From: Diplocarpon mali
Lineage: Eukaryota; Ascomycota; Leotiomycetes; Helotiales; Drepanopezizaceae
Assembly (NCBI GenBank): GCA_024741835.1
Contig: JAENRP010000006.1
Coordinates: 249,379-313,378 of the forward strand
Reading direction: 5' to 3'
DNA length: 64,000 nt
Numbering within the stretch: the stretch's first letter is position 1; the number at the start of each line of letters is the position of its first letter. A program made the translations under genes and the position numbers. Below are positions 11,760 through 64,000 of the stretch, one piece after another. The notes under the pieces were generated by a model. The model did no database searches and was not told the origin of the DNA. It worked only from the letters and a program-made list of their open reading frames with translations.

Positions 11760-13769
11760 ATGGCCCAACAACAATACGGAGATATGTACGCCGACTACTC
11801 GCAGCATCAAAACCGGTCGCCCATCGCCAGTCGCTACCACGGCTCCGGGCTCTCGCTCAACCGTCAACCGTCGCGACATTTCGAGCAATACAGCTCCAAC
11901 TCTCTGCAAGGCGGCCTGCTATTTCAGGATGATCACTCCTCCCAATACGACAACTCCCGTTTCGACAGAATGGCTTCCAACCCTCTAAATACGTCATCTA
12001 GTTACCTTTACGAGAACCAGACTTGGAATTATGGAGGGGCAAATGCTGGTGCGAGCATTATGGGCGGAACGGGCCGCCTGAAGCCACAACCTCCACGACG
12101 AGCAGGCCTACCAACCGTGAGTCGTCGCCGAATCATTCATGCGAGAGTAATGCTAATTTTCTCCAGGGATGGCTCGACCCTCAGATGCATCAAGCCGAGA
12201 GCATGAGTAATTACCAGATGAACGGCCAGTTCAATATCCATCAGCTCGCCCAGCAACGCGGCTCTCCGCCCCAAACCGACAACGACGAGCTGATCCCAAC
12301 GGCTATTGTCATCAAGAATATCCCTTTCGCTGTCAAGAAGGAGCAGCTCATTGCCTGCATGACCGAGATGCGTCTACCATTGCCGTATGCGTTCAACTAC
12401 CACTTCGACTCGGGTGTGTTCCGGGGCCTAGCATTCGCCAACTTCACCAGCGCAGATGAGACCCAGACAGTCATTCAGGCTATGAACCATATGGAGCTGC
12501 AAGGGAGAAAGCTCCGGGTCGAGTACAAGAAGATGTTACCAGTGCAAGAGCGGGAACGGATCGAGAGAGATAAGAGAGAGAAGCGCGGTCAACTGCAGGA
12601 GCAACATCAGCCCCTGGCGCCTGGCCAGGTTCAAAACCCTCTACACGCCCAATCGTCCATGGCATCCTTGACCTCGATGAGCTCGGCCAACCATCCCCCT
12701 CCCGCTTCGCCATCTCCTGTTTCTTTCCGGGGCAAACTGGGTAGGCCTAGCTCGAACCTGGGATTGGATCTTCTAACAATTGCAGATCTTGACTTGAACG
12801 AGCCAGTCACGCTCGGATACTATAGTGACTTGATGCTTTTCAAGAGTGACCAGAGCCGCGAGACGCTCATCTTCCCGCCCTCTGTCACTCCCGCAGACCG
12901 GCGAATCATTCACACTCTGGCCCACCACATGGGCCTCGAGCATAGATCCGAGGGCTCGGGAGATTCTCGATGTGTTCAGATTCTTAAAAGGGCCACGCAG
13001 ATTAGCCCTCCTGTTGCGCAACAATCGACTTACTACACCGAATCTTCCCGCCGAGGATTGAACCGTGCCGCGACGATAGACTTCAGCGAAGCTCGAGAGA
13101 ACTCCGGAAACTACCATACGCTCAACCGTCAAGGCTCCAATCTTTTGGATATCCCCGGATCTCCGGGTCTGGGGGGACTTCCTGCACATAACAACCTGCG
13201 CGCGGCTAAATCTTTCGCTGATCTGCGTTCGTATACCCCATCACCCGTACACTCGACTGCCAGTTTCCCCGTTGGCTTGACACAAAACATCTCACGATAT
13301 GCAGCAGAGTACAGCCACGGATCCGTGGCATCTGGAACCCCCAACCTTACGCCTACATCCGCCGGCGGTATGAACGGCCGGGACGAGACCTTGCTACTGA
13401 GTGGTATCAGCAACATGTCTATAGGATACGATCGTCCGAGCTCCAACCGACAGAATGGCGGCGGGCGTATCGGTCAAGAGAGGGAAATCCTCGCTCCATC
13501 CGCTGGTGCTATTGGAAGTCAAAGACCGGTCAATGGCAACTTCGAAGATACTCCTCGGAATGGTGCTGCCGTGGAGAGGCAGCCACGAGGCCCTGGCGCT
13601 GATTGGGGTGCTGGAGGCGGATTTTCAAGACCACGACAGAATGGTCACATGAATCGAGGTAGTGGTGAGCTTGACCCGAGTAACTGTACAAAAAAGCTGG
13701 GATGATAACAGAGTCCAAGATTCGTCCGATCGAACCGGCGGCTCGCAACCTACCTCGCGATACTTGTAG
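11760..13769 (+). CDS. PIN4: RNA-binding protein with RRM and R3H domains (PIN4/Cip2 type)
   Basis: Exons are 11760-12116, 12167-12740, 12786-13664 and, as my preferred ending, 13720-13769, giving about 619 residues. The second intron (12741-12785, TTCTAACAATTGCAG end) is 45 nt and keeps the frame either way. The last intron (donor GTGAGC, acceptor AAG) gives the natural-looking tail SQPTSRYL; without it the frame stops at 13705. After a Q/S-rich N-terminus comes an RRM: AIVIKNIPF is RNP2-like and RGLAFANF is RNP1-like. A charged helix (QERERIERDKREKRG) follows, then an R3H-like segment (LIFPPSVTPADRRIIHTLAHHMGLEH). This domain pair is diagnostic of yeast Pin4 and fission yeast Cip2, phosphoproteins that bind mRNA and act in checkpoint or stress responses. 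The C-terminal half is low-complexity and Ser/Gly-rich. Confidence 0.85.
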
Positions 13770-22255: not shown

Positions 22256-23816
22256 ATGGCTTCTATATTCTCACTCCCAAGCGAGATTTCTCTATCTGCT
22301 CTCTGCGCGCAATTCCCTTGCCGAGATCAGCAAATCCGTACGCTGGCCGCCCTTCTTTCCGTAAGTCATCCACACGCCCATTACAACAATCTCAATCTCT
22401 AAAACTCCTTATAGATCAGGGGTATCGGAAGTCGGAACATAGTCCTGCACGGACTGGAAGCCACTGGCAAGAGCGCGATTCTAAAGGCGCTGCTCGAGGA
22501 GCTCTCGGATTCGTCAAGTGATCGCCGAACGAAGAGTTCTGTTGGACATCCAGAGGACAGCCTGCGATATGCGGTAGTGAAGAGTGCAGAATGCATTGGG
22601 GGTCGGCATCTTCTCGAGCAGACTGTGGGGGCCGTATCCAAGGCGGTGGGTTGGCAGGATAACGTTGGCCGTTGCGAAAATTTATCACAATTGACTGTTG
22701 AGCTTGGGAAACTGCTGGATGGCTGGGCAACATCAGCAGCAGCAGAGGAACAGGGTGTAAAGCAGAGATTTGTACTGGTATTCGATGGTATAGATCGGCA
22801 GCGGGATGCTCCGCCAACACTACTACCAGCTTTGGCGAGATTGAGCGAGATAGTAAGCGCCCAGCATCTCAAAAGCCTCATTAGCTAATAGTATCCCCAG
22901 ATCCCCAATCTCACCACCATATTCATCGTCACCTTACCTCGTCCCAACATGTTGCACGTTCCAGGCGTACCATATATCTCCTTCCCCGCCTACGCGAAGA
23001 TAGAGCTCCTACGAATCATCGCCCTCACCAACCCCTCTCCAACCCTCCCGAAGGAAACCAAAGAGACATGGTCTCGCTTCTGCTCCGCAGTCTGGGACTC
23101 CCTCTCCAAGCATTCCGGGCGAGACTTCCTCTCCTTCCGCGCTGTGTGTCTACGTCTCTGGCCCCGATTCATAAAGCCCATCCTAGACGGCTCTCTAGAC
23201 TCAACGCCCTTCACCAAGCTGCTCATCGCCAACCGCTCTTTGTTCCAAGATGATGCTGTTTTGCTCCACAACATCGTGTCCGACGCTCCTACCCCTGGGT
23301 CTTTGACAACGCCAGTAGCGGCAAAATACGCAGGCATTGGCGCCCAACTCCCCTTCTACTCCCGCCTCCTGCTAGTAGCCGCCTACCTCGCCTCCTTCAA
23401 CCCGCCCAAAACCGACGCGACGCTCTTCATGAAAGCAGCCGCCTCCAAACGGCGCAAGAAAGGCGGCGGGACCGCCCTCACCAAGGGCCGGCAGGGCGTT
23501 GCGAAGCATCGCAAGATATCGCGGAAACTGCTTGGGCCGCAGGCCTTTGTGCTGGAGCGCATGCTGGCGATCTTCCACGCCATCAGGGAGGATTCCGATG
23601 CACGCGGCAGAGGTAAGGGACGGCTCGAGGGAAGCGCGGATGTGCAGATGGCGGTTGCGACGTTAGCGAGTTTGAGGTTGTTGGTTAGAATAGGGGCGGC
23701 GAGTAGTGCGGATGTGTTGGATGCCGGGGTGAAGTACAAGGTTGCCGTGGGATGGGAGGTGGTTAGGGGCGTCGCGAGGAGTGTGGGAATCGAGGCGGAA
23801 GATTATCTGGCGGAAT
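22256..23816 (+). CDS. ORC5: Origin recognition complex subunit 5, 3' end lost in gap
   Basis: Exons are 22256-22360, 22415-22852 and 22901 to the N run. About 486 residues are visible. Orc5 is an AAA+-like subunit of the six-protein complex that marks replication origins in the nucleus. The P-loop is HGLEATGKSAILK and a Walker B-like strand is FVLVFDGID. The later stretch (LTTIFIVTLPRP, VPYISFPAY) is typical of the AAA+ lid of Orc5. The C-terminal winged-helix part includes PFYSRLLLVAAYLASFNP and ASKRRKKGG, an Orc5 hallmark. It ends at EDYLAE, immediately before the gap; family members end at about this point, so only the last residues and stop are missing. Downstream of the gap, in a frame that cannot be fixed, VLT-stop is seen. 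Confidence 0.88.
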
Positions 23817-23857
23817 NNNNNNNNNNNNNNNNNNNNNNNNNNNNNNNNNNNNNNNNN
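23817..23857. other. Assembly gap (41 N)
   Basis: A run of undetermined bases hides the end of ORC5. The true length may differ from the number of N. Confidence 0.95.
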
Positions 23858-25582
23858 GTATTGACATGAGCAAAGAAAATCAGGAGATATACTCCACGCT
23901 GCATCCCCGTCTGTGATTTTGGTCATATCAATATCGAACTAGGCGATGGTGACTAGACATCAAAATAACATATATTAATCATGTCTATTTCATTTCCTTC
24001 TTGCCCGTCTTATCTTCGTATAGCTATCTCCATCTGTGTAAACATGTCGCAATAAAAACTTGAGATGGAAACGGGTAGTGCTGTTTGATCTTACTCAGCA
24101 ATCTGTCCCAAGACTTGTTGGAATTAAGCGAAGTCAACGTTGGATAAACAGCTCTGGTCATCCACAACAGTCTTTGTAGAGGCCCCATTCGGCTGCCATG
24201 ATACCCACTCTTATAAGTTGTTAGTATAGGTGCAGTATCGCTATCGATATTTCAGTCAAAATATAACAGAATTCGACAGTCAAATTATGATCATATTGTA
24301 AAGCCTGTCCTTCTACAGAGGGCCGATATCATGCCTAGATACCTCTGAATCACCTCCCTTTCTCTATTCCCCCACGCCCGTGCAAGACATAGAAGCCGAG
24401 ACCCTCGGTTTGAGACCGGTCCGAGGTCCCTTTGAATTGTACCCGACTCCTATGTAAAGTGTATCTACAGGATGGTCCTAGGAACAAGGGGACAGGGTGC
24501 CACGGATATAATCTGCGTACCAACAACTAATCTACTCTACTCGGCTCTTTGTCTATCATCTAAACTGTAGTTACATGTTACTAGCCTCCGGTTCTCGTAT
24601 GTGCGCTGGTTCATAGTACCTACCGGTGTACACCTTAACTACCCCTCCATATCTTTACGGAGTGGTCGAGCTGATTAGCATAGCTGCGAGTAACATAGTA
24701 TTTATTCATATAACTAAAAAAGGGAGAGAGACAGAAACAAAACCACGCACTTTTCTCCTCCCACCACCACAGCCCATCTTGACCGTCCTTCGCTCCTCAA
24801 GCGCCAGCGAGAGAAAAATTGAAAAGCACGGTAGGAAGAGAGAGTACTGCGACCCGCATCCCCTCTCCTGTTCTGAAAAGAAAACAAAGGAAAAGGAAAG
24901 TGAACTGAGCATTGAAGCTGGCCAGGACAGCAGAGTACATGTCAACATCCAGCGAATCGGAAGCCGGATATGGAGCAGAGGTCGTAGAAGCGGCGGTGTT
25001 GGGGGTTTGATTTACATACAAGCCTTCTTCTTTGCTACTCTGTTCGTGGTGCTCTCTCTTGGTTGGGAGGTAAGGTGAGATATGCATTTAAGTCAGGTAG
25101 ATCCTGGGAGGTTCTTCCCTCATCTCGGCCCATGACGGAAATGTGGGTGTGGGGTAGTGGTATGGGTTTGGAGCGATAGATTCAGGGCGAGTGTATATCG
25201 CAGGACAAGGAATGATTTTTTTGAGAGGTATCTATGTTTGTTTGTTTGTTTACTTGGGGCGTACGGGTAATCCTTGAGGTGTTTGGTAGTTGCGACTGCT
25301 TCGGCTGTGGTGTGAAGAGTGGGAAACCGAGTGCTTGATGGACGATGAGAGCTACCCCAGCTGCGCCGCTGTGACTAAAGTGAAGCGGCGATCTTGAGTA
25401 GAAATACAGAGCCACGATCAAGAATCTAAAACAGCGTTAGGCACAAGAAAGGATTAGTACAGGGAGGACAAGCCAAAGCTTGGTATTGATCGCTACTCTC
25501 TTCCCAGCCAGCCACAAGGTACCTATACACAGAGGCACCAGTAACTCCAGACTCCAAAGCCCGATTCCCTAGCCCCTCACAC
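23858..25582. other. Convergent intergenic region
   Basis: About 1.7 kb between the 3' ends of ORC5 and BRX1. No coding or RNA gene is supported. A short imperfect inverted repeat (CCTCGG...CCGAGG) lies near 24390-24430. Confidence 0.5.
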
Positions 25583-29522: not shown

Positions 29523-32500
29523 ATGGCGCCCGGATCGCAGTCTCGAGATGAAGACGACATCTCCGTCACCTCGACTGTGTCCGATCAATACAGCGCCGAT
29601 GACGAGTTTGAAGTTGATCGAATACTAGCCGAAAAGGGCGGACCCCAGAGTGGTAAGTTCTACCTCATATCGTGGCTGGACTACCCAATCGAAAAGGCAA
29701 CGTGGGAGCCCGCAGTCCACGTAGGACCCGAGTGTCTGGATGTATGGAAGGAAAGATTGCAGCGCGAAAAGGACGGCTTGGAGCAGCCATTTAATATCGA
29801 AGAATGGGAGGCCAAACTGGTGAAAGCCGAAAACGAGAAGGCGGATCGCAAGAGACGACGAGAGGCCAAGAGAAAGCGACTACGGAAGGCCAATCTCCAG
29901 GCGTTGGCGGAGAAGATAGCTGGTAAACCGTCCGACAGTGATGCGTCGAGCAGTGAGGCGATGGAAGAGAACCTGGTAGATGCCGACCGTGGGCAGAGAA
30001 CCAAGAGGGACGTGAGACGAAAAAAGGCGCCAGCTCGGACGCCGCAAGCCAGGAAACCTCCACCCAAAGCGGCCGTCAAAGGCACAAGCTTCGAGGAACT
30101 AGATGATGAACTGTCCAAGGCAGATGCCAGAATTGAAGAAATGCAGATAGGGAAGTCCAGCAATGCCTCAAATCGGGCTCGAGAGGTACGACAAGACATT
30201 CTTTACAGAAGCCTACTAGTCTTTGGATCAGCAGCCAGCTCGAAGCTAGTAGGAATGTATTTGTAAATAATTTCATGAGAAAATGATCTAACATCAAACA
30301 GATCTCACCCAACCAATATGTATCAGATTCTGATGAAGATCTACCACTGGCACAAATTGCACGAATACAGCCAAGGACACAGCCGGTGTCTTCTACCAGT
30401 GGATCTTCAGCTCAAGTACTGATCAAAGCACCACCGACCAAACTCCCGACCACTGCTCAATCATCCTCCGCGGTGGGACCACCAGCTGCTAGCAGGCCTC
30501 CTAGCATTCGAACCACCAGAGACACTCCACATCCACCAGGAGTTCTCAGTAATAAAGCTGGTAAACGTGCGACACGGGGAGGGCCCAATATCGCTAGAAA
30601 TGTCTTCGAGACCCGAGAACCAGCGAAGCTGAGTGCTAATCTACTCACAAATGCCATGAAAACCTCGATTGAGCCGAAGGTCTTCGGCAATATCAGCCAC
30701 CGCAGGTTCGTCGTCATCTTCTGTTTCAGTGTTATCTACAACACAGAAATCCTATGCTAGTATCGCTCAGGTATGGGTGTCCAGAGCTTGAAATGCTAAG
30801 CTGGTCTAGAAAAGCCGAGTTGCAAGGAAGAGACTTAGCCGAAAGACCTCCTGATCTCGAAGTACTTGGCGGCCTCTTCGACCCATCAGAGCCAGCATCT
30901 ATGCAACCCGTCAAGCCATCAGACATTCGCAAGCTGCCCTCCAGCACATCCAACCGGGCATATTTAGACAAGACTCCGGCTCGAAACGATCTTTTCCTCT
31001 CCAGAAGTGAAACTCCCAACCCCGAGGTACCCAGCAATCACATTCCCACGCCACCTCGACCAAATCTGCATCTACAGACAAGTTGTCCACGTCCTGTATG
31101 CTTCTTCTGGGACAGACAGCAAAAGCATATGGGCGGTCCTTGCCAGAACGGAGAGAGTTGTCGCTTTGAGCACACTTACCACTATGGTCTAACTGTTGCT
31201 GCGCCCCCTGATCATTGGGCGTACCCAGCACCTGAATTATCTCTGCCCATTTCCAAACATGAAATACATCCTACGAAAGATATCGCCACTTCTGCGACCG
31301 GAAAAAGCCCTGCATCGACGAGCTCTATCAGCCAGAAAGAGAGAGACTCAAGACCACTCATATGCTTCTTCTGGGACAGGTGGATGAAGAACGCGCGCAA
31401 CCCACCATGTGTAAAAGGATCTAGCTGCACTCGCGATCACACATATGAATATGGCCAACCAATTGCTGGGCCACCTCGAGGGTATAGATTTCCGGCATCT
31501 GATCAGTTCCCTGTATTGCCGCAATCTAACAACCTTGCCATCAACAAAGATAACAATGCGCCAACTCCTGAAGCCACTCAAGCTACAGATCTTACAGCCC
31601 GAGCGCAAACGAGTATCAAATCTGCTCCGCCAGGCTTTACTGCGCCCGATCGGACTTCTGACAAGACAACTTCTGCCGCCAAAACACCAGCGAAGTCCGA
31701 ACAACCTGTATGTTTCTTCTGGGACAGAGCACAAAAGAGCAGTGTCAAACTGCCTTGCAAAAACGGAGACCATTGTAAGGACGCCCATACTCACGAGTTT
31801 GGTACGCATATCTCTCCAGCCCCCCCAGGCTTCTCTTCGCATGACCACAATGCTCCACACATTAGACACGCGGATCATGCGGCCGAGCCGGATACCAATG
31901 CTGCGTCTGCATTGTCAACAGTTCACTTGAGACGTCCATTGGAGCCAAAGACTCATGTGTGCCCCTTCTGGGATGCGGAACAGAGGAACAGCTCGAAATA
32001 CTTGCCTTGCACAGAAGGTGCAAACTGTAGGTATCTGCACACATACATCGGTGGTTTTCCCATCGGTGGTGCGGTTTGCTTCTTCTGGGACCAAAATCAA
32101 AAGAATAGCAAATGTCCGCCATGTGCCGAGGGGCCAGTGAATTGCATGTATCGGCACTCATACGGAGAAAACGCGCCTATAGCTCCAGCCCCGCTCGACT
32201 ACAGGCCCCCATTTCCAGCAGACCGGCCACAATGGAGCCCAGAAAATCCCCGTAATGCTATATGCTACCTCTTCTTCCACGGACGGGAGTGTGATACAAG
32301 TACTTGCAGCTTTTTCCACAGCATGGAGCCTGGGATGGCAATCGCGCCGTCGCCTGAAGGACAAGCCGTACACGCCGCTACTCGAAAGGACGAAAAATAC
32401 CAGAGCTACATACAGTCTGCATCGTCGGTCAACGAAGAGAACTCAGTGTTGATTGAAACGGCGGCACGCACAAATAACCAGGCTGGTCGGCCACCAACTC

Positions 32501-35500
32501 CACATCTCGCTCTGTCATCCATTACTAGAGACCGAGAACCTCCCCCTCGCTCCTCAGCTATTTCAAACAGGCCGGCTTGGGACCCTCGAGATCCACAAGA
32601 AGCAGTTTGCTTTTTCTGGTACAAAGGAAGTTGCAAGAAAGGAGTGACCTGTAATTACATTCATGACCTAAATTCCATGTTTCCCATAGCACCCCCTCCA
32701 TGGGACCATACAGCGGCCAAGACGTGCCTTTTGTGGGCTGAAGGTCGTTGCCCCGAAATGGCAAAAGATTGCCGCAATTTGCACGAGTATGTTGAGCCTG
32801 CTTCAGCGCTCGGCCGTGGCTCTATTTCCAACTTTCGAGCTGAAAAAGTGTATGATTCAACCAATCACTTTCTCATCGGCTCACGAAAAAAATCGGTCAA
32901 TTTTGCTGAGGACTTAAGGGAGTTGACACAAGAGCCAGCGAGCGTGTCTCCGGGCCATCGTTCTCTTGATCATAGAGCCCCAGCACTCACCATTCCCGGT
33001 CATCCTGTAGCCTGCCGATTCTTCAAGAAGGGGTCGGGTTACTGCGAAAATGGCGCGTCGTGCCGGTTCTCGCATGATTATCCAGAGCAGCCTGACATAG
33101 TTTCTGTGAACAATGAGCCATCGCGGATCAGACAGATATCCACCGGCGTTCCTAATGGCATTCAGTCAAAATCTGAAACTTTGTCGGTCACTATTGATGA
33201 AGATGTTGATATGCTAGGGTCTGATGTGAGCCAGCTTGAAGTTGATAACCAAACTCATGTTGCGCCGCGAATCGCTTCTGAGAACCCAAGCTCCAAGCTA
33301 AATGGGAAGATGATCAACGCGGGGGAAAAGATACGCCAGAAGGCGACCGAAAGCCTTAGTGCTAGGGTCAAAGAGGTTGTCTTTGGATCTGATGAATCCC
33401 GGTCGCTCTTCCTCGACTTCGGTGACTTGAAGCTAGAAGAATCAGAACCATGGAAACTGGCCCTCACCTCTGATTCAAAGATCAATTTCCATCAGATTTG
33501 TCTGGCACAAGACGTCAAATCCCAACAGGGCTTGATCATGCGACAAAAATTATGGTGCGGGAGTCTCACTGCAGCGGATCCAGAACATTCGGAAATGCAC
33601 AAATCCATCGACCAGGTTGTGGATGAATTGGTCCTTCGCGCTGCTGGATTAGTATCTACCTTTGCCGGCTTCGCAATCCTGATCTTTCCCTCCAAAAAAG
33701 AAGAGTGGCGGTTTCTTGAAGATTTTGCCCGATATTCTTTCGACGCTCCACTGCGATATATGATCTTCAGGCACGAGAACAATCTCAACCAGTCTCGAGA
33801 TTCGCCTTCCAAAGTTGGATTTGGTAAGCCATTCAGAAAAATGCTGATGAGCAAAATTCATGGTCTCCGCTTGAACAATCTGGTTCCAAAATATGGGAAG
33901 GATCAGAACCCGTTCAAGTTCTATCTACTGTTGCCGCAATCTGAGGAGCAGAGTTTGGATTTCTTCTCAGCCTGGATTCGGGCTTCCAACCCCGAGTCGC
34001 AGATATTCGATTGTCGAACAAAAGGCTCTTGGGACTTCTTTCTTAAGAATCACGAGGGCTTTGGTGTCATCCTCATACATGACTCGCTCGTGGGAACAAT
34101 CTCCCAATTACCTTCTGTGAGGAAGCTATTAATGTGTCCTGGTATTGTGATGTGGAATGTGTCAGATTCGACATCACTTTATCCTAGGTTTCCGTCCATG
34201 TCATGGGAGCCAGAATCGGAGTTGGGGACAATCAAATTCACACGCCTGTTCCCCCATGGCTGTGCATTCCTCCTTACCCCCAGCTTTCTCGTTGCTGAAC
34301 CAGAGCTATCTCACGATCTTCTGAGGTGGTTCTTTCTAAAATTTAAAAGCTCCACCCCTGGAACGTGGAAGCTTGTTTGCTGCTCTAAATTCAAGGACTA
34401 TATTCTGGACCTTGCGGATGCCAAGGTTATGGAAAAAGAGGCGTTTGAGAAAATACACAGAGATGATCCGGCCCGAGAGTCTATGCTGAAGCAAAAGAAG
34501 CTTAGCTACGACCTATGCGAACTGCGCTATAAGATTCATACCCTCGTTGCTCAAGCGAAAGGAACTTTCTATCCACCTGGTCATGGCGACGGCGGCTCTG
34601 AATCAGATTCGGGTTTTAACGAAGACATGGATGGTCCGCTGGTAGAGGCTCCAGCTATGATCGACCAGGATGATGAGGAACAGCTCGTCATGTGGTTCGC
34701 GGCTTGGTCAATGCAGAAACTCGACGTCCACCGAAAGTTTGGAGTCATCGGCACGAACCAAGAAAATGCCGTTCGAGCGAAACGAATCAAGCTCAAACCT
34801 CCCACCAAACCTCCGCTGAGTGTGGAGAAGCAGAAAGCCCGCGACATTACAGACAGATACTACAAGCTCACATCCAAGAAATTGGACCCCATCCGGACCC
34901 ATGAGGTCACAGAAAACTTGTCTGATAGCTCGATGGCCGTGGATTTGGGAATTCCTGTAATATCTAAGCACAGCATCGATGGCAACCAACCAGAGGACGT
35001 CTTGGAGTTCGTCAGTCAGACCGGATCGCCCCCCGAAGACGCCAAGCGGTACCTGGCAAAAGCTAACAATAATGTCAGCACTGTTCTAGAGATGCACAAG
35101 CGTGAGGATCTGCACGACCAAGTCGTCAAGACGACAAACAGTGAAAGTTGCAGACCGCTCCGACCACTTACGATCAACGAGTCAGACTTGCAACGTGCAG
35201 TCTACAATGATACCAGGAGAGAAATGCGGCACACGAAGCCGAAAGGGACCGGGGACGACACACCAGGCATACCTCGGGGCAGGCCAGAGCTGGAGAAGGA
35301 CGCCTTCCATACTGATAGGGTGCTCGTCGCACAACGGCCTGTATGCAAGATTGGATCGACAACTCTGGATGTAAGAGCCGGGGACCGTGTCAGACTTATC
35401 AAGTTCGTTTCGGGGAAACGGCATTACGCGCTCAACCTGCGCACCAATGAGCGGGGGCAAGTTCATGAAGACCTATTCCACCCGGAGCCTGCGGCGGCGG

Positions 35501-36027
35501 ACCATGATCGTGCTCCACTGCCATCCAACTGCTTGGCCACTACTAGAGATGATTATCTGCCTCAGCACGACAGCACGTCGGATACACGCTCCTCCTCAGG
35601 TAACAAGAGAACCAGTTCCGTCGCAAATGACACCTCTAGCCACCGTTTCGTCCCGGGCTCGCTCGCATCCCATGATACTAGTCGTCCCGAGCGCTCTGTC
35701 AAATCCGGTTTCGTCCCCGAGCAAGAAAAGGAAGCCTACGAGAGCCAGTGCACCATGGACGAGATTCCGCTCGGCGCCGTTGGATCTAAACCCAAGGAAG
35801 GACTTGGTCACAAAGGTAGTGTTGAGTCTGCGTCTCTCACGTCGAACGGGAGCGTCCGGCCACCAAAGCGAGCACGCCGGGAGCATCCGGATCCGGGCTA
35901 CGAGACCAAGGAGTTCAGGGCCACGAGTGCTTGGTATCGTGAGTTATGCGAGGCCGAGAAGGGCTGGGAGCACATCGCTATCCTGACGGACTGGGCGGAG
36001 GCGAAGAAGTTCTTGCACTTCAAGTAG
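29523..36027 (+). CDS. Very large chromodomain protein with nine CCCH-type zinc-binding motifs
   Basis: Exons 29523-30185, 30302-30705 and 30771-36027 encode 2107 residues. The chromodomain is at about 28-80 (FEVDRILAEKGG, FYLISWLDYP, ATWEP), with aromatic cage positions F29, W51 and Y54 kept, so methyl-lysine histone binding is plausible. A charged, disordered linker follows. Nine Cys-His motifs start near residues 466, 554, 670, 753, 792, 854, 969, 1008 and 1104. The first five share CFFWD/CPFWD...PC..G..C...H(T/S)Y with about 13-14 residues between the first two cysteines; the last four have shorter CCCH spacing. A folded region without zinc motifs lies at about 1290-1680, a UBA-like segment at about 1764-1800 (EDVLEFVSQTGSPPEDAKRY) and an SH3-like one at about 1873-1930 (VRAGDRVRLIKF, NERGQVHEDLF). 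A nuclear heterochromatin or RNA-linked silencing role (compare fission yeast Chp1) is inference. Confidence 0.82.
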
Positions 36028-36376
36028 ACACGGTGGAGGTCGGGACATGTAGGGGCTCTTGGCCTCGAGCGACACGTTTCTCGGCCCATGGGCCAGTGGT
36101 ACGATGTCATTTGTAAAGATGTACATAGCGGGCGTTCAGAGGGCGCAGCAGTGCCGGAGTTTTGTGCAGATATGGGAGGTTGGCTTTTCTGCAGGTAGCG
36201 CCGAAGGTTACGAGTCAGCTAGCCTTGCTGTGAGACAAATGCATACACACGTTCACCTGCCTCGTGCCTTTGTTTCCAAGATGGAGCCGAACGGGAGCTG
36301 GGATTTGCGAGGGCTGTACCGCGGCTGCTCTGGTGTAAGGTGTATTCGCCCGCGACGAGGTTTATATAGGTTTATA

Positions 36377-36437
<61 letters not shown>

Positions 36438-37679
36438 GTGTATATGTATATGTATACGTATATGTATTTGTATATATATATGCAAACACATATGCACATG
36501 CACATGCATACCTATACCTATACCTATACGTCTATATCTGTATTTATCTGTATTTATCTGTATTTATCTGTATTTATCTGTATTTATCTGTATTTATCTA
36601 CATGTACACATATACACATGTACACATATACACATATACACATATACACATATACACATATACACATATACACATATACACATATACATATATACACATA
36701 TACACATATACACATATACATATATACACATATACACATATACACATATACACACATATACACATATACATATATACATATATACACATATACACACAGC
36801 ACACATACACACAGCACACAGCAGCCACCGACCAAGAAAACGCAAACCAGTCCTGGGCCGAGATCAGCCGGCAGATGGAGCGTGGTCTCCAGCCTCATCA
36901 GGGCTGGCACCAGACCACACCCCAGACCAGACCCCGGCCCAGAGCCGGCGCGAAACAGCACTCGACGGTGAGATCTGACATGGGGCGTGTGGCGTCTGGC
37001 GTCTGGCGTCTAGCGTCTGGCGTCTGGAGTCTGGCGTCTGGAGTCGCGACCGAGGATTCTGCAATGCGAACTGCTCTCCTTCTTTGGTTGCTTACTTGGT
37101 TGCTTGCTTACTTGGTTGATTGCTCCCTTGGTTGCTTGCTTACTTCTTCCTCCGACGTAAATACCAGGGAGGTGGCTGGGCTGGGCTGGACTGGGCTGGA
37201 CTGGGCTGGGCTGGGCTGGGTTGGGTTGGGGCGGCGGGTCTCTGGGGGGGACAGACCAGCCGGTGCTCGTCGACGCCGGTCGCGGGCATGGCCGACTGGG
37301 ATGGGCTGTGTAGGACGGTACGGTACGGTACGGTACGGTACGGATACAGATTAGCAATGTAGATCGAGAGACAGGAGACTTGGGGGGCTGGAGGGGGGGG
37401 GAGAGAGGGAGAGAGAAGAAAAAGGCAGAGGCGCCCACGTAGGTGAAGAAATATGGGTCGGTAAGCCGATGGGAGGTAGCCTTCGTGGCGACAACTATAC
37501 AAGTTGGCATTGGAGTCAACAATATAAAAGGGAGAACAGGCTGATAGGAAAAGATGTAAAACTTCTCTAGGTAGAGCCATAGTAAGAAAACATTAAAAGC
37601 TAGCGCGAGATATATTACACCATCCACCACCCCATCTTCCCCTCTGATACCCAAAAGCCCAAGCAGAATCACCGACGAC
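36028..37679. repeat. Cluster of simple-sequence repeats
   Basis: In order: (TATATG)n at about 36364-36445; a TCTGTATTTA 10-mer repeated about six times at 36535-36600; (ACACATAT)n at about 36603-36800; GTCTGGC repeats at about 36994-37043; TTGCTTAC/TTGGTTGC repeats at about 37084-37145; CTGGGCTGGA/GGGCT repeats at about 37169-37228; and a (GGTAC)n-like run at about 37316-37341. The long Tyr/His/Thr or Cys/Val/Tyr frames read here on both strands are translations of these arrays and are not listed as genes. Confidence 0.85.
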
Positions 37680-39686: not shown

Positions 39687-42164
39687 TCATGTCCCAATCG
39701 GCCTCCGGGCGCCCGGCGGCGCCTCGAGAGCAGTAGCTGGAACGACATCATCCATAGCCGTGTCCGAGCCAGCTGCCAAAGCCTCCTCATCCGTCTCATC
39801 CTCCTCAGCGTGATCCTGCTCCCACTGCCTGACGCTTCTCGTCAAGAAGCTCGTGCTATCATCCTGGTGACGTCTTAGCATCTTCCCCAGTCCGCCGCCG
39901 TCGACTTCGCCGCGGCTGAGCTTGATCTCCGCCATGACCACGTTGCCGAAGCGTTGCTTCCGGACTTTCTTGGAAGACTCTTCGTCGACCCAGCAGGCGT
40001 GGTCGGGCGAGACGTAGATCAACGAGTGGTCTCTGTACCATCTCGACAGGTTTGGGTCGGTTTCGGATTTCACGGGGCGGAGAGAGCTGGCCACGAAACA
40101 GAGGATGCCGGCAATGCGGTCCTTGGCATCTGCGAGAGATTAGCATGAGCCCGCAGATGGTTGTGGGCGGGAGCGCGAGCCTCGAGAGATCAGGAGCTGC
40201 TTGATGCCAAAGTACGCGTCACCCACGCCCATCAGACTCAGGCTTGCGCTGGGGTTCAGCTCGATGTAGTTGTCCCAGAGGTAGCAGAGCAGCTCTCGCG
40301 TCTGCTGAGCTACGATACTCTCCGTCGGCTTAGGAGCGTACGGGTCCGCGTCGGTCTCGGAGGAGATGTGTTGGGGGATGTTGATGTCGACGACCCCAAA
40401 ACCATGCTCTATGGCCCACTTGATGTACGCCAGGAGCCCATCCGCCTACCGTCCATCAGCGCTGGCCAGATACGGGAGGCAGGGCACTCACCACAAAGGT
40501 ATTGTGGGCATATACGGTATTATCGTGGGGGTCGGGCTGAGCGTGTATCTCCGGTCTGGAGGAGGTATTAGATGACGCCTCGTGCTTGTAACGGGGGGAG
40601 TGACTTCCGGGTCATGGATAATCAGCAAGATCTTCTTTGCCCGGTTCAGCTCCGGGGTGACCAGGACCTGGTTCTCGAACGCTCTGCTCAGCTTGGTCCG
40701 CTGCACGTAGAGTGGGATCATGTCGTGCTGCTCAGCAAGATCGTGCTTTTGCGCCGTCCGGATCACGTCGCTGAGCCGGCTGGTACCCACGTCCTTCAGT
40801 GCGGCGAGAGGCACGACACCCGGTCGCATACACTCCCAATACGCCGATTGTATCCTCTTGACGTTGTCGAGGGTATGAGCCGCGACTTTGTTGAGCGGCG
40901 GAATCGTCATCCTCTCCGGCGGCTCGCCCATCAAGGTCCTGGCCACCGCAAGAGCAGACACCGAGATCGCCCTCAGGTTGTAGCCACCTTCCAGGCAAAC
41001 AGCCACCTTGCCGTCTGCCAGCGACATGAGCATATGCGTCATGTGCGCGTAGCAAGGCGGAGAGACCCAGCAGCCGCCGAGCTCATCGCCCGCCGCCGCA
41101 TCGAAGCCGGCCGAGATGATCACCAGATCTGGATCGAATTCTTGGGCGATGGGCATGACGATCCTCTGGAATGCCGCCATGTACTCACCATCACCCACGC
41201 CCTGCTCGGCCCAGCCGATGTTGACATTCCTTCCGAGACCAACCCCGGCTCCGCACATGTCCAGCCCACCATCAGGCATCTCGTCGTCTTCCGGCGGCCC
41301 GGGGTAGAATTCCCCATTCTTGTACACGTGGAGAGACATGTAGAGCACGTTCGGGTTTTCGTAGAACATGTTCTGGATGCCGTTGCCGTGGTGAACGTCC
41401 CAGTCCAGTATCAGGACTTTCCGGCACTTTTCGGGGTAGTCCCGCATGCAGACATTGGCGGCGATGGGGACGTTATTGAAGATGCAAAACCCCATGGACT
41501 CGTTATGCTCGGCGTGGTGTCCAGGAGGGCGGATGACGGCAATGGCATTCTTCACCTTGCCCTCGACAACGTTCTTGCAGGTCTCAATCGCACCACCGGC
41601 TGAGACGAGCGCCGCGTCGTACGTCAGGTTACCGACGTAGAGGGACTTCCGCCCATTGTCAAACTCTTCGGTCATGTGTCTCAGCTCCATTGAGGTCTTG
41701 TCACCCAGAGACTTGACCCATTCGAAGTGGCCTGCCGCATGTGCCGTGCATATCTCTTCGCGCGTCGCCTGTCGAGCGGGTATCCTCCACATGTACTGGT
41801 TGGGCGATTTTTTCCAGGTCGCTTCCTGCTCAAGGGTAGTGCCAGTGCATACCAGGCCGTTGTCCTTGAACTCTGTCATGATAGCCTCGATTCGACGCGG
41901 GTCCTCGGGGTGGTGAGGATTGGCTGAAAAATCAGCATTGGCGTGGAGCTTCATTCGATCATCGTAACAGCATCCTGTCGCAAGGTTCGCCCGTCGAACG
42001 ACAAGCTTCGTGTCTGGCGCCGAGGATGGTGGCTCGTCGTGCGGCTCGGCTTGCGTCAAGTCGAGGGGGTTGGATCGATCTTCAGTCTGGTACAGGACTC
42101 GGGGATCCATGAAGCCGTTCCCGACGGCCTGGGATTGCTCATTGGCGTCCACGGACGTATCCAT
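39687..42164 (-). CDS. HDA1: Class II histone deacetylase Hda1 with C-terminal Arb2 domain
   Basis: Minus-strand exons are 42164-40605, 40548-40492, 40445-40181 and 40129-39687, 774 residues (an ATG at 42182 would add six). Hda1 removes acetyl groups from histone tails in the nucleus and represses transcription. Deacetylase motifs seen: IRPPGHHAEH (catalytic His pair), MGFCIFNNV, ILDWDVHHGNG (zinc Asp and His), MSLHVY, IISAGFDAAAGD (second zinc Asp) and CLEGGYN. After about residue 500 comes the Arb2-type domain (IIHDPEIHAQPD, FGVVDINIPQH, LMGVGDAYFG, LIYVSPDHACW). The third intron, 40180-40130, has a GC donor (CGAG|GCTCGC) and CGCAG acceptor; no GT donor is near, and the junction ISR-DAKDRI fits the family. 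The ending is acidic, then PPGARRPIGT. Confidence 0.93.
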
Positions 42165-43731
42165 GGCGCTGCTTTGAAGCATCAGCACGTCTGGAGGCTT
42201 CCAAGCTATATGATGGAAAGGAAAGCTTGGTCGTCGGAGGAAGCAGCCGAATGAAGCTTGAGCCCGGTATTAGTAAGCTAATTAACCTGGAGTGACGAGC
42301 CAGTTTGGAGGTCCAGAGCAGTGCACTGTGTTTCTCTACAGCTCTACACAGCAGAACGTAAGTCGATTTGAGCCGAAGCAATGTTCTCAGGTGGTGCACG
42401 GAAAAGCAAAGCCTTGACACAGAATTAGTGTTGAGTCTTTTAGCAGCTTCCAAAGCACAAGACACGCTTTAAGTATGAGAGCCAGGAAGAATGTCGCTGA
42501 AATCCAAAGAGAGGAGACGAGAGATCACAGGCGCAATCCTTATCCAGAGAATAATGGACGGCTAGCGAGTAGGTAGATCCCCAATAGATAGAGCGTAGCA
42601 GAACTCAAAGAGGCGTGTGAGCAGTAAGAAGAATGAGAGAGCACCGGGGAGAATGACAATCAACCCCAGCAAAATCATGAGACGAATAATTCCTTCCCTT
42701 CTCTCCTTCTCCTGCTTTCCCTCCTCTCCAATTTCCTCTCTTCAACAACGCCAAGTTCTCCCTCTTCCACATCTCCCCCCCTCAACTCACCACCTCGCAG
42801 AACACCTAATCCTATCAAGCTCATCAAGAGCTCTCTGCCCCCAGAACTACTCGCAGCCCAAAGACCCTAGCTCCCCAATATGCATAAGATCAAAAAACCC
42901 GCAGCAGAAGCAGCATCAAAGCATCAAGAACGACAGGAAGAGAAAGGAAGAGAGAAAGAAAACCACCTCAAGACTCACCTCACCTCGTCCCAAACATAGA
43001 GCCACCCTCCTTCAATAGAAACCAGAGAAAAAAAAAAACAACAAAAAAAAAATAAAAAAAACACGCAGCACGCCACGCGACCCTTCTTCTCCCCCTGTGC
43101 AAACTTTTCCTTGCCTAGTTCCTCACTAGCTACGCGTACGGGTTTCTGCGCGCTGGAGCTCTCGTGCGCTGCTGTATTTTCTTGTTCTTTTATTACGGGT
43201 TCCGGAGGTTGAGGGCGTCCCTGTTGCTGGTACTGGTGATGTTGGAAGGGAGAGTTGCGATCTCCTGGGTCCGTAGACGCGATGGACTGGATTAGGCGAA
43301 CCGAGGTCTGAGCGAGCTAGCCTTACAGCCTGAGGCGCCAATGCCGCAATTCCACTCCAGACCGGAGGTGAAATTCAGTACTTGGGATCGTAACAGATAT
43401 TTCCAGATGAATCAGATATGCTGCCGGGTCTCTTACCAGCCAGTGGTCTTGTTACATAACTCCTTCTCTTGTAGAGGTCACTAGCTGGGCTGGATGTACC
43501 GATGTCTTCAAGGCAGTGTCAAGCATCAAGCGTACCCCACCTTACGGATATACGTCACTGGGAGCCTGGGAATATGCAAGTTGGTACACTCATCATTGCC
43601 TGTTTATTTTGCGATTGCTAGACTACCGTGACCAAGCCCTCTCCCATCAGAGTCTGCCTTTCAATACACTGTCAGAGAAAAACACTCATCAGAAATGGTT
43701 CCTGCACAAGTGCGGGAGAAAGTAAATCATC
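42165..43731. other. Intergenic region
   Basis: It contains the HDA1 upstream region and the GAPDH 3' flank. A CT-rich block lies at 42690-42780 and an A-rich run at about 43027-43062. No gene is supported. Confidence 0.5.
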
Positions 43732-58173: not shown

Positions 58174-60302
<2,129 letters not shown>

Positions 60303-63300
60303 AGTGCTACAGAAGGGTAATAAGTGGGCGGAAACCAACGGAGGTGTGTGTATATTTTTGAGGGGATGTGGTGCAGGTGGGTAGGCAGCACGCGCATTTG
60401 ATTAGCGGGGCTGTATACAGACATGGAAAAACACCTGGTCCTTTCGAGAGCACGCATCTTCCTAGCTTGTAACAAACCAAATTCTCCTTTTGTTCAAAAG
60501 TGGCATTCGTGGTATTGATCGGTACAGCCGATGTGTGATCTTTTTGTGATACGTGACTTTTCGCCGAGTGGGTTCTGACAAGTGTCACTAACCATGCTCC
60601 TTGAAAGCTAGACCTTACAATCCTGTCATACGATTAGTAGATATTTGTCTAAGCTTTGGTTACGCCATTGTTGATTTCCTTGGAGAAGGTTGGGTTGTTT
60701 ACTTCCCAAGAGTCAATGCGAGCAACGCAGCCTCGATGCAACGAGGTGCTCTATTTAGGAAGGAGTGAAGTTGGGAGAAGGGAGTATGAATATGATGGAG
60801 ATGGAGATAAAATGGAGATATGTATATGTATATGTATCTATCAATACATATTAACGAAAAATATACAGTAGAAAGAAGACGTAGCAGAAACAGGTTGAGA
60901 GGGATTTAATAAATGTTGGTGCGCAGAGTTATTACATCGTAATTTAGTATCGTTCTGATCTAGCCCCCTTCGCTATGATCTCTAGGATTGCCTTACGTAC
61001 CACTTTCTATATAAAATTCAGATATCAGTACGTATAGGTCTGAGATCTTGTGTTCGAGACCTCTGAGAGCTATCTTCAGGTAGTTGTCTAAGGGTAAGAG
61101 AGATGAAATGACAGGGAGACGGTTAAGTATATATACATAGACCTTTTCGACCAGTTCTTTGTAAAGGACAGACTTTACAGAATACATACTTTAACGGCCT
61201 TGATTCATAATATGTATGAACAGTATATCCTGTGAAATTTTTAATCAGGTTTATGCTGATATTATCTTGCACTTGCTATAGCTTGCCAGATCATTTGATT
61301 TAGGGTTATCTTTTCAAACTAACTTCTAGCATACGCTTTTCAAGACCAGCAGGGTGAAGAGTAGGGCAGTTAAAAACTTGAAAGCAAGTATGGATTACGC
61401 TAGTAGGAGGGATAGGTTAGGAGTGAAATGATTATTTATTGGGGTTTTAACGATCTTATTCGTTGGCCTGGCGTACCTAGGAGTCCTCTCTCTTAATTGT
61501 GATTGCTAGAGGCTAGCTTATTTTTATTTTTATTCTTATACTTACTCCTTTTACTTTTTTTTATTCTTATTTTTATATTTGCTTTTATTCTTATTTTATT
61601 TTTACTTTTGTTTTTCTTTCGTACTTTCTTTAAGGTGGAGTGGTGTAATGCCAGGTTTAGTACCTTGCAGGTATATAAGTAGAGTTGCTTATAATAAGGG
61701 GCCACATCTCTCTCTCTATATACGTATCTCTCTCTTCTAAGACCAGAATTTATATTTTCTTCTCTTCAATTGGGATCCAAATATCAGTCTTGATAGGTCG
61801 TAGCTACTTATACTGTAAGACTTGGCTCTCTCAGACTGTAAAATATTAGTAAAGCTTCCGACAGGCTTCTCTACTAGTATAGAAAAGAGTCGTATCAGTT
61901 TTACAAAAGTCGCAAGCTAATTTAAATTATCATCACTAATACCATGTTTCTTGTGATAGGTATACTTCTAAGGTATAACGACGGCTCAATTAGCTTGATG
62001 ATAAAAAACCTCATCCCGGCCTGCTTACTATTACCAGCCAGAATGTTAAGGGAGAAGAATGAAGAAGGTTCCCTTTGCCAGGTACTTGGCACTCATATAA
62101 GATCGGATAAGATGTAGAGGAATCGTATATAGAACAGAGGCAGACTGATTTCATGTATATAAGTAGAGAGAGTTCTGTACTAGATGGGCTCTCTAACTTC
62201 TTTGTTTCCTGTATAATAGACCTATGAATCCACTCTCTGCCTTAATACTCGCTTCTAACTAGTTCTCGCTTCGAGTCTCACCGCTGGCACGTGCCTATAA
62301 CGTATGACCTTGTGCATATTCGTATCAACTTGCGAAGGGCGATTGGTTTTAGCGAGAGCAGCGGGACGCAAATCAAGTCAAATCAAAGTATATGAGAAAC
62401 TATTTTTATTTGCTTAATTAAAGGTCGACCAAAGGGAGACGACGACTCAACACCTATACGCGGTATCTCCTACAAACCTGCAAACTCTTTAAGAGTCTGC
62501 AAAGCCGAGATTAAGTCCTTTCGACTACAAATGATCAAACCCTAGGTTAAATAAAGCTAGAACTTTCGGAAATGTTCAAATGAAAACTTTTCTCTTTATT
62601 ATACTACTTCTTCTACAAATACTCTCTACTTTCGACCTTTGAATAAATAGTACTCTAAGATTATTTAAATATATCCTGGTAATTAGAGGAAAGGCAGGTT
62701 GCAGTATTTAAGGAGGAGGAGAAAAACGGAAATGATATATTTCGACATGTTATAAAGTCGATAAGAAGAGTTATGATTAAGAGCTGCCGCCGATCAGCAA
62801 CATAATTAATGTGATCAAATAAATAGCTGCTATTAGCGTAAAGGGCTTATCTTAGAATAGGACATCTAAGGCGACTCTATTTATTAAAGGCACCTTCTAA
62901 GAACATACTCGCCCAAGACTTAGAGGGAATAACTACTGAGGTTTTAGTTAGACTCTTATCTAAGGAATCAGGAATCATAGGTATAATAGACTAAATAGCA
63001 AAGATATAAGGATTTTTTAAGCTAGCCTCTCCGTATACCTAGATCCGACTATAGCGTTTCTCGCTTATATTATATAACTCAAAAATAATATAGTATATCA
63101 AAAGGAAAAAAAATGGTTAGCAAGTTTAGTATAAACTACTTTCTTACTACTACTTTGGCCGTGGCGAAACGAGGCCCCCTGGCCCCGGAGCTTGCGTAGG
63201 GCCGCCAGGGCGAGGATCTTTTTAATGCTTCCAAGGTCCACCCTACGTCAGTTATTTCTATGGGTTTTCTTAGAAGTGCAGAAAGCATATCTACTTGAAC

Positions 63301-63646
63301 TTCAGCTTAGAAATCTTTGCTAGGGCTAGTAAAGTTACTATGGCCAATTAGACAACCTATGAACTCTATTCCCAAGATAATTCACTTACGCGGCGTAGTG
63401 ATTATTAGTGGGTCGAGCGAATCCATCGAGATTACCGGCAAAGGGATAGGAGGAACGACAAACCAGATACAAGATTATCTAGCATCTTTACGCGTATGTC
63501 GGCGATGCCGAATCACACTCGGTCAACCCGAGAAGTACGGTACAGTACTTGTATATAAGAGCCTTAAGCTCCTCCGATAGAAGAGTGGGCAAGAAACACC
63601 ACTCTGATGCTCGACCGACTCCCAGTCCTGCAAGAAAAACCTCAAG
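60303..63646. repeat. AT-rich block, probably decayed repeat DNA
   Basis: After the ATP2 3' flank (to about 60900) composition drops sharply to AT-rich. No frame of protein character remains. A TTATTTTTATTC-type run lies at 61520-61615. GTATATAAGTAGAG occurs at about 61672 and again at about 62156, the second followed by sequence resembling the transcribed part of an LTR. A GC-rich island (GGCCCCCTGGCCCCGG) sits inside it at about 63172-63210. The appearance fits transposon relics mutated by RIP; no family can be named. Confidence 0.55.
63552..63558 (+). promoter_or_regulatory. Candidate TATA box of the effector-like gene
   Basis: TATATAA lies about 90 bases before the ATG at 63647, a plausible distance for a fungal core promoter. 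It is the only positional evidence, and the block is AT-rich, so chance is possible. Confidence 0.35.
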
Positions 63647-64000
63647 ATGCGTTCCTCCGCGACGATCACGATTTTACTTGCACTTTGCATTGATTCCGCT
63701 TTCTCGATCTGTTGCTGGCCTTTTTCCCCCTCGAAGAAACCTAGTTCTCCGCTTGGCGTATCCTGCAACGGCAGAAGATATACGTCAGATGACATGGATA
63801 AATGCAACGAAAGAGCGCACGAACTCCTCTATAACAAAATGACATTTCAAAAATACCCGTATCATTTATTGAAAAGTCAAGCGATTAAACTCAACGGATC
63901 GCCACCTTATTTCGTTTTCCCGTTGGTTGAGAATGGTCCTTGGGGAAAAAATATACACCCTGGACCTGATCGATGCGTCATTAGTTCAGAGGAAAGGTTA
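63647..64000 (+). CDS. Secreted RNase T1/N1-like effector candidate, 3' end outside window
   Basis: ATG at 63647 begins a frame open to the window edge (118 residues visible). Residues 1 to about 20 form a signal peptide (MRSSATITILLALCIDSAFS). The mature part follows the layout of small fungal guanyl-specific ribonucleases of the T1/N1 fold: VSCNGRRY at about 38-45, DKCNERAHELL, KYPYHLL at 69-75 (in place of the usual Tyr-Pro-His block), PPYFVFPLVENG at 86-97, and PGPDRCVIS at 105-113. The Arg after PGPD is kept, but the position of the catalytic Glu before FPL is Val90, so the protein is probably not an active RNase. Such RNase-like proteins are a known effector class in powdery mildews and relatives. 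It lies beside AT-rich repeat DNA. The C-terminus, with its final cysteine and His block, is not seen. Confidence 0.7.
   Translation, partial: MRSSATITILLALCIDSAFSICCWPFSPSKKPSSPLGVSCNGRRYTSDDMDKCNERAHELLYNKMTFQKYPYHLLKSQAIKLNGSPPYFVFPLVENGPWGKNIHPGPDRCVISSEERL

Follow-up and report, generated by a model that had tools for sequence, protein, structure and literature searches.

A predicted Chp1-type chromodomain scaffold with a CCCH zinc array and a diverged Mago-binding-type motif in Diplocarpon mali

In fission yeast, the chromodomain protein Chp1 has a three-domain SPOC-DomII-PIN body that carries Tas3 and hence Argonaute. Chp1 (structure 3tix) belongs, with Tas3 and Ago1, to the core of the RNA-induced transcriptional silencing (RITS) complex. 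To our knowledge, this body occurs in only two silencing scaffolds, Chp1 in RITS and TASOR in the human silencing hub (HUSH). Tas3 cooperates with the Chp1 body and bridges it to Argonaute (PMC12863538), and HUSH is assembled by TASOR, which has the same SPOC-DomII/PIN body (PMC7532188). Here, we describe a gene at 29523-36027 on the forward strand of a 64,000-nt window of Diplocarpon mali, the window being the whole stretch of DNA analyzed (contig JAENRP010000006.1 of assembly GCA_024741835.1, G000:C6:249379-313378; genome of 49.4 Mb in 676 contigs). Positions are in window numbering unless prefixed by G000. The gene product is 99% identical to the hypothetical protein PZA11_003320 of Diplocarpon coronariae (hereafter P0001, 2094 residues). 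On balance, we consider it rather likely that Leotiomycetes have in this protein a heterochromatin adaptor of the Chp1 type, with additions on the RNA side.

A previous interpretation made from the letters of the sequence (the sequence-only reading) had named Chp1 as the nearest concept and suggested comparing a large folded domain with the SPOC and PIN folds of Chp1. That comparison was run, and the likeness reaches further than proposed: residues 1184-1689 are predicted to take the SPOC-DomII-PIN fold of Chp1, with DomII and PIN following SPOC in that order.

33355-33786, forward strand: SPOC domain, about residues 1205-1348, predicted fold
33832-34257, forward strand: DomII-like domain, about residues 1364-1505, predicted fold
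34255-34764, forward strand: PIN-like domain, about residues 1505-1674, predicted fold

When similarity to Chp1 was sought by sequence, the core had no match among PDB sequences at E <= 5 and none in Pfam, our copy of which may lack models of the Chp1 core. The SPOC part also matches Ku70/80 and INTS13-INTS14, which we take to be related barrels. The PIN part is probably structural and not a nuclease, since its first strand (LLTPSFL) is without an evident catalytic Asp. Like Schizosaccharomyces pombe Chp1, the Diplocarpon protein combines an N-terminal chromodomain with the SPOC-DomII-PIN core, the latter by predicted fold. Unlike Chp1, it adds a CCCH array between chromodomain and core, a UBA-like stretch, a Mago-binding-type motif and a WY..GWEHI end; its core is without a sequence-level match. 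Vertebrate HUSH (TASOR with MPP8 and Periphilin) similarly pairs a SPOC and DomII/PIN scaffold with a chromodomain for methylated histone H3 lysine 9 (H3K9me) (PMC7532188), whereas the Diplocarpon chromodomain is on the same chain and a zinc array and the Mago-type motif are added. TASOR proper was ruled out as an identity for the protein, since its pseudo-PARP domain DUF3715 gave no row at E <= 1 in the 14 relatives scanned, P0001 included.

The N terminus holds the domain that would place the protein on chromatin.

29601-29762, forward strand: chromodomain, residues 27-80, cage positions F29, W51 and Y54

An N-terminal chromodomain with an intact cage had been claimed before, and it is borne out by a Pfam Chromo match of 36.2 bits (cut-off 25.1) at 29607-29756 (G000:C6:278985-279134), by 31.4 bits in the near-identical P0001, and by the translation, which gives these three residues at the cage positions of HP1 and Chp1. 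When the single sequence was searched against the PDB, Clr4 was the best match (1g6z, E 3.4e-5), followed by MPP8 and CDYL, with Chp1 (2rsn) at E 0.015. A family profile gave, among the best 60 of 120 matches, Clr4 (3.5e-10), Chp1 (1.1e-9), CBX5 (1.9e-9) and CBX7 (5.6e-9). From the cage and these nearest relatives we infer binding to a methylated histone. Because Clr4 and Chp1 are the top profile matches, with CBX5 and CBX7 close behind, the comparison favors H3K9me as the mark read, another mark being possible.

A search with the whole protein found 9 relatives, and one with the core of P0005 from Phialocephala gave 29, counting P0005 itself and four others of the nine already known. A third search, with the distant P0033 as the query, returned only P0033 and P0034 among 7993 scored candidates and so gave no link to S. 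pombe or to fungi of other classes; it required shared five-letter words, so this absence means little. In total there are 34 relatives, and 33 were aligned, P0034 having been found later. For model building, near-duplicates and partial records were excluded, so that alignment A2 took 28 of the 33 and A5 took 29 of the 34; A5 has 30 members, one being the core piece of the window, which cannot contain the tail motif. An organism name is attached to 16 of the 34 (Diplocarpon, Leptodontidium, Cadophora, Phialocephala, Mollisia, Hyaloscypha, Stipitochalara, Venustampulla, Cudoniella, Oidiodendron, Halenospora, Tricladium and Golovinomyces), all presumably Leotiomycetes. Some relatives are called "chromo domain-containing protein 1" in their source records, so annotation pipelines already tie them to Chp1 by name.

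The chromodomain part is present in 17 of the 33 aligned relatives and absent from the records of the other 16. The core accompanies it in 16 of the 17, the remaining one (P0007) being a partial record that ends inside the core. This survey of orthologues, which the sequence-only reading had recommended, indicates from predicted proteins that the domain order is a trait of the family, and makes a two-gene reading very unlikely, because 16 relatives carry chromodomain and core together. The annotation of D. coronariae is also a single protein, and the placement of all parts in one polypeptide stands. Separate genes for 29523-30705 and for the zinc part, the arrangement that the sequence-only reading had set against its own claim, were rejected, since the predicted gene models of the relatives join both parts. 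The revised gene model is as follows.

29523-30185, forward strand: exon 1, residues 1-221, holding the chromodomain; open frame in agreement with P0001
30186-30301, forward strand: intron 1, GTACGA...CTAAC...CAG, from a splice-site scan; P0001 is continuous across it
30302-30705, forward strand: exon 2, low-complexity linker
30706-30809, forward strand: intron 2, donor GTTCGT, branch-like CTAAG, acceptor CTAG, from the alignment with P0001 and P0002
30810-36027, forward strand: exon 3, open frame with linker, CCCH array, SPOC-DomII-PIN core, UBA-like stretch, Mago-binding-type motif, C-terminal motif and stop

Two introns had been proposed and two are kept, with the second now ending at 30809 and not at 30770. 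With this boundary the protein has exactly 2094 residues, with 13 substitutions relative to P0001, instead of the 2107 first given. The 13 extra residues are probably intron sequence, because the longer intron yields the exact length of P0001. The acceptor CTAG is at 30809, the branch-like CTAAG lies about 10 bases upstream, and HRR-KAELQGRD runs across the junction in P0001 and in Diplocarpon rosae P0002. Since the intron 2 donor is unusual, and the gene models of the relatives are predictions as well, one might suspect that two neighboring genes, chromodomain and zinc/core, were falsely fused. However, so many relatives are predicted with both parts in one protein (16 of 33), and the junction of exons 2 and 3 aligns so cleanly, without a gap on either side, to D. 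coronariae and D. rosae, that we find such an artifact hardly credible.

Between the chromodomain and the core, nine CCCH motifs span residues 453-1111. All nine of those previously claimed were located in the translation, whereas 2000 shuffled proteins had a mean of 0.0085 and a maximum of 1.

31099-31173, forward strand: CCCH 1, residues 453-477, Cx13Cx5Cx3H
31363-31440, forward strand: CCCH 2, residues 541-566
31711-31788, forward strand: CCCH 3, residues 657-682; in the nine-row alignment, P0001 only
31960-32040, forward strand: CCCH 4, residues 740-766; in the nine-row alignment, whole in P0001 only
32077-32157, forward strand: CCCH 5, residues 779-805; ligands invariant in 9/9 rows
32263-32319, forward strand: CCCH 6, residues 841-859
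32608-32664, forward strand: CCCH 7, residues 956-974, Cx7Cx5Cx3H; ligands invariant in 9/9 rows; zf-CCCH above cut-off in P0001
32725-32784, forward strand: CCCH 8, residues 995-1014; ligands invariant in 9/9 rows
33013-33075, forward strand: CCCH 9, residues 1091-1111; ligands invariant in 9/9 rows

Fingers 5, 7, 8 and 9 keep all four ligands in every row of the nine-row alignment, and the others vary; in that alignment, fingers 3 and 4 are whole only in P0001. The number of motifs ranges from 0 to 11 among the relatives (partial records included), and none was found in P0032, from the powdery mildew Golovinomyces cichoracearum, or in the distant P0033. The zf-CCCH family is matched at E <= 0.01 in 22 of the 30 A5 members. 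The first loop is long (13-15 residues) in five fingers and has 7-9 residues in four. Among the best 60 of 120 matches of a PDB profile search, the CCCH proteins of known structure that come nearest are RBM22 and Yth1, which we take to be RNA binders, and the array would accordingly be a candidate RNA-binding element. It resembles RBM22 and Yth1/CPSF30 in having CCCH fingers with aromatic residues, and differs from them in sitting on a chromatin reader and in the Cx13-15 spacing of five of its nine fingers.

Neither the Chp1-type core fold nor a Mago-binding-type motif near residues 1967-2001 had been noticed in the sequence-only reading. The C-terminal features are as follows.

34993-35079, forward strand: UBA-like stretch, residues 1751-1779, marginal; UBA_4 as an isolated piece
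35368-35487, forward strand: stretch previously called SH3-like, unsupported; Diplocarpon only in the nine-row alignment
35641-35745, forward strand: diverged Mago-binding (PYM-type) motif, residues 1967-2001; 24.7 bits with the family profile, below Pfam detection
35914-35997, forward strand: conserved C-terminal motif FxATxxWYxxxxxxGxGWEHI, residues 2058-2085

Precomputed Pfam domains place Mago-bind (PF09282) in 3 of the first 9 relatives. Among the 14 relatives scanned singly, six exceed the 20.6-bit cut-off (P0005, 33.6; P0010, 37.1; P0012, 25.2; P0014, 29.9; P0026, 39.6; P0029, 34.7), P0003 is below it (16.8), and P0001, P0004, P0025, P0031, P0032, P0033 and P0034 gave no row; in A5 the family is matched at E <= 0.01 in 14 of the 29 relatives. 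In the PDB, a profile of eleven copies of the motif, the window's included, matches one sequence, that of PYM in 1rk8 (E 8.1e-9), and the alignment runs ungapped for 34 residues. When the window's copy was left out, the profile of ten relatives' copies scored at least 50 bits in 15 of the 34 relatives, namely the ten that had supplied the copies and five more. It scored 22.8-24.7 bits in the window protein (24.7), P0001 and P0002, 21.7 in P0011 and 13.6 in P0025, compared with a maximum of 5.4 when the window protein was shuffled 200 times. The C-terminal segment is present in 28 of the 33 aligned relatives, 15 of which have the strong motif. Mean conservation is 0.59 in the two blocks with the motif, higher than in the stretches that precede (0.50) and follow them (0.42-0.47). 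Across the genome, Pfam gave no match at E <= 10 at the site of the motif in this gene; its only matches were the separate PYM gene and, elsewhere, a weak one under the threshold. Diplocarpon thus retains a worn copy. Deletion of the PYM motif, which binds Mago-Y14, abolishes the binding in Yarrowia (PMC6351623). The tail of the relatives is like the N-terminal motif of PYM/WIBG (Partner of Y14 and Mago; 1rk8 chain C), but it is located near the C terminus of a chromodomain protein, is worn in the window protein, and exists beside a separate PYM match in the genome. Worn in Diplocarpon and absent in several relatives, the Mago-binding-type motif is on this comparison an accessory and not the heart of the protein.

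The remaining C-terminal proposals fared unequally. A UBA-like segment is kept as marginal: the 53-residue piece alone scores 22.0 bits with UBA_4 (cut-off 21.8), whereas whole P0001 scores only 15.4, and 11 of the 30 A5 members match at E <= 0.01. An SH3-like domain was rejected, there being no Pfam or PDB sequence match and the segment occurring in only the two Diplocarpon rows of the nine-row alignment. The end motif (F.ATT.WY......G.GWEHI) belongs to the segment found in 28 of the 33 relatives, among them the distant P0033 and relatives with neither CCCH nor Mago motif.

If the protein is a Chp1-type adaptor, its chromodomain would dock on H3K9-methylated nucleosomes and its CCCH array would grip RNA made from that chromatin, either replacing Argonaute or acting beside it. 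The core, through its predicted fold, would serve as a platform for bringing in the silencing machinery via a putative partner. Where the PYM-type tail is present, its contact with Mago-Y14 might enable the complex to detect the exon junction complex on spliced transcripts, to retain it or to remove it. A more daring version, which we think rather doubtful, is that the tail recognizes Mago-Y14 on nascent transcripts, or takes it off them, with the chromodomain sitting on H3K9me chromatin, so that the splicing state would decide silencing, with the handle decaying in Diplocarpon. Sensing or stripping of Mago-Y14 by the tail is attractive because HUSH targets long intronless transcripts (PMC7618375). 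The analogy is not proof, since introns without splice sites also protect from HUSH (PMC10732640).

A different function is conceivable, in which the protein is a nuclear RNA-surveillance or posttranscriptional silencing factor, its CCCH fingers and Mago motif acting on messenger ribonucleoproteins (decay, export or 3' ends), and its chromodomain merely positioning it, possibly at another mark such as methylated histone H3 lysine 27. We regard this as unlikely: Clr4 and Chp1, which head the best 60 of 120 chromodomain matches, both read H3K9me, the core is Chp1-type by predicted fold, and the resemblance to RBM22 may be generic CCCH likeness. The protein could also be a plain Chp1/TASOR-like scaffold on which the zinc array and the tail are lineage decorations without RNA or exon junction complex function (protein-protein zinc modules and a relic motif). 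The swings in finger number among relatives, the lack of both CCCH and Mago motifs in P0032 (which keeps chromodomain and core) and in P0033, and the worn motif of Diplocarpon all fit this. However, the invariant ligands of four fingers, the raised conservation of the Mago-motif blocks and the strong motif scores in 15 of the 34 relatives, five of them outside the profile-building set, speak against it, and we hold mere decoration to be quite improbable. A Chp1-type adaptor with RNA-side additions is thus the explanation that we prefer.

The genome contains parts that such a silencing adaptor would need. Argonaute is encoded by one stop-free frame on C446, and two more Piwi matches have internal stops (L014 and L015; G000:C149, C451), from introns or decay. 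There are RNA-dependent RNA polymerase matches on four contigs, one Pre-SET match, one Mago match and a separate PYM match in Pfam. Nine of the 18 chromodomain matches in the genome have internal stops; these may be old retroelement integrases, introns giving an equal pattern. In the window itself, some 4.5 kb further downstream, 40491-42188 on the reverse strand encodes a histone deacetylase that also has an Arb2-like domain (Hist_deacetyl, 281.3 bits). We take it to be of the Hda1/Clr3 type, enzymes that act in heterochromatin. Just downstream of the gene, 36370-36800 has long runs of short repeats of the TATATG/ACATAT type. Elsewhere, the window has a frame with R3H and RRM (12023-13702, forward strand), an ORC5 lid and C-terminal part (22949-23866, forward strand), and, at 60001-64000, a fall in GC content from about 0.53 to 0.39-0.41, resembling the AT-rich, repeat-bearing stretches of fungi with repeat-induced point mutation.

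The original observation is real and more interesting than claimed, as it concerns a scaffold of the Chp1 type that bears a zinc array and that, in roughly half of the relatives, also has a motif of the exon junction complex type. In the open-access papers searched, we found no description of a filamentous-fungal chromodomain-CCCH-SPOC protein, or of a chromodomain and a Mago-binding motif in one protein. A further branch of SPOC-DomII-PIN proteins in filamentous fungi, whose chain also includes a zinc array, would help to separate the basic parts of the design from the rest. Since the scaffold comes with a Mago-binding-type motif of its own, a link between splicing and silencing is directly testable in this family, and it touches the question of how genome surveillance separates intron-poor mobile DNA from ordinary genes.
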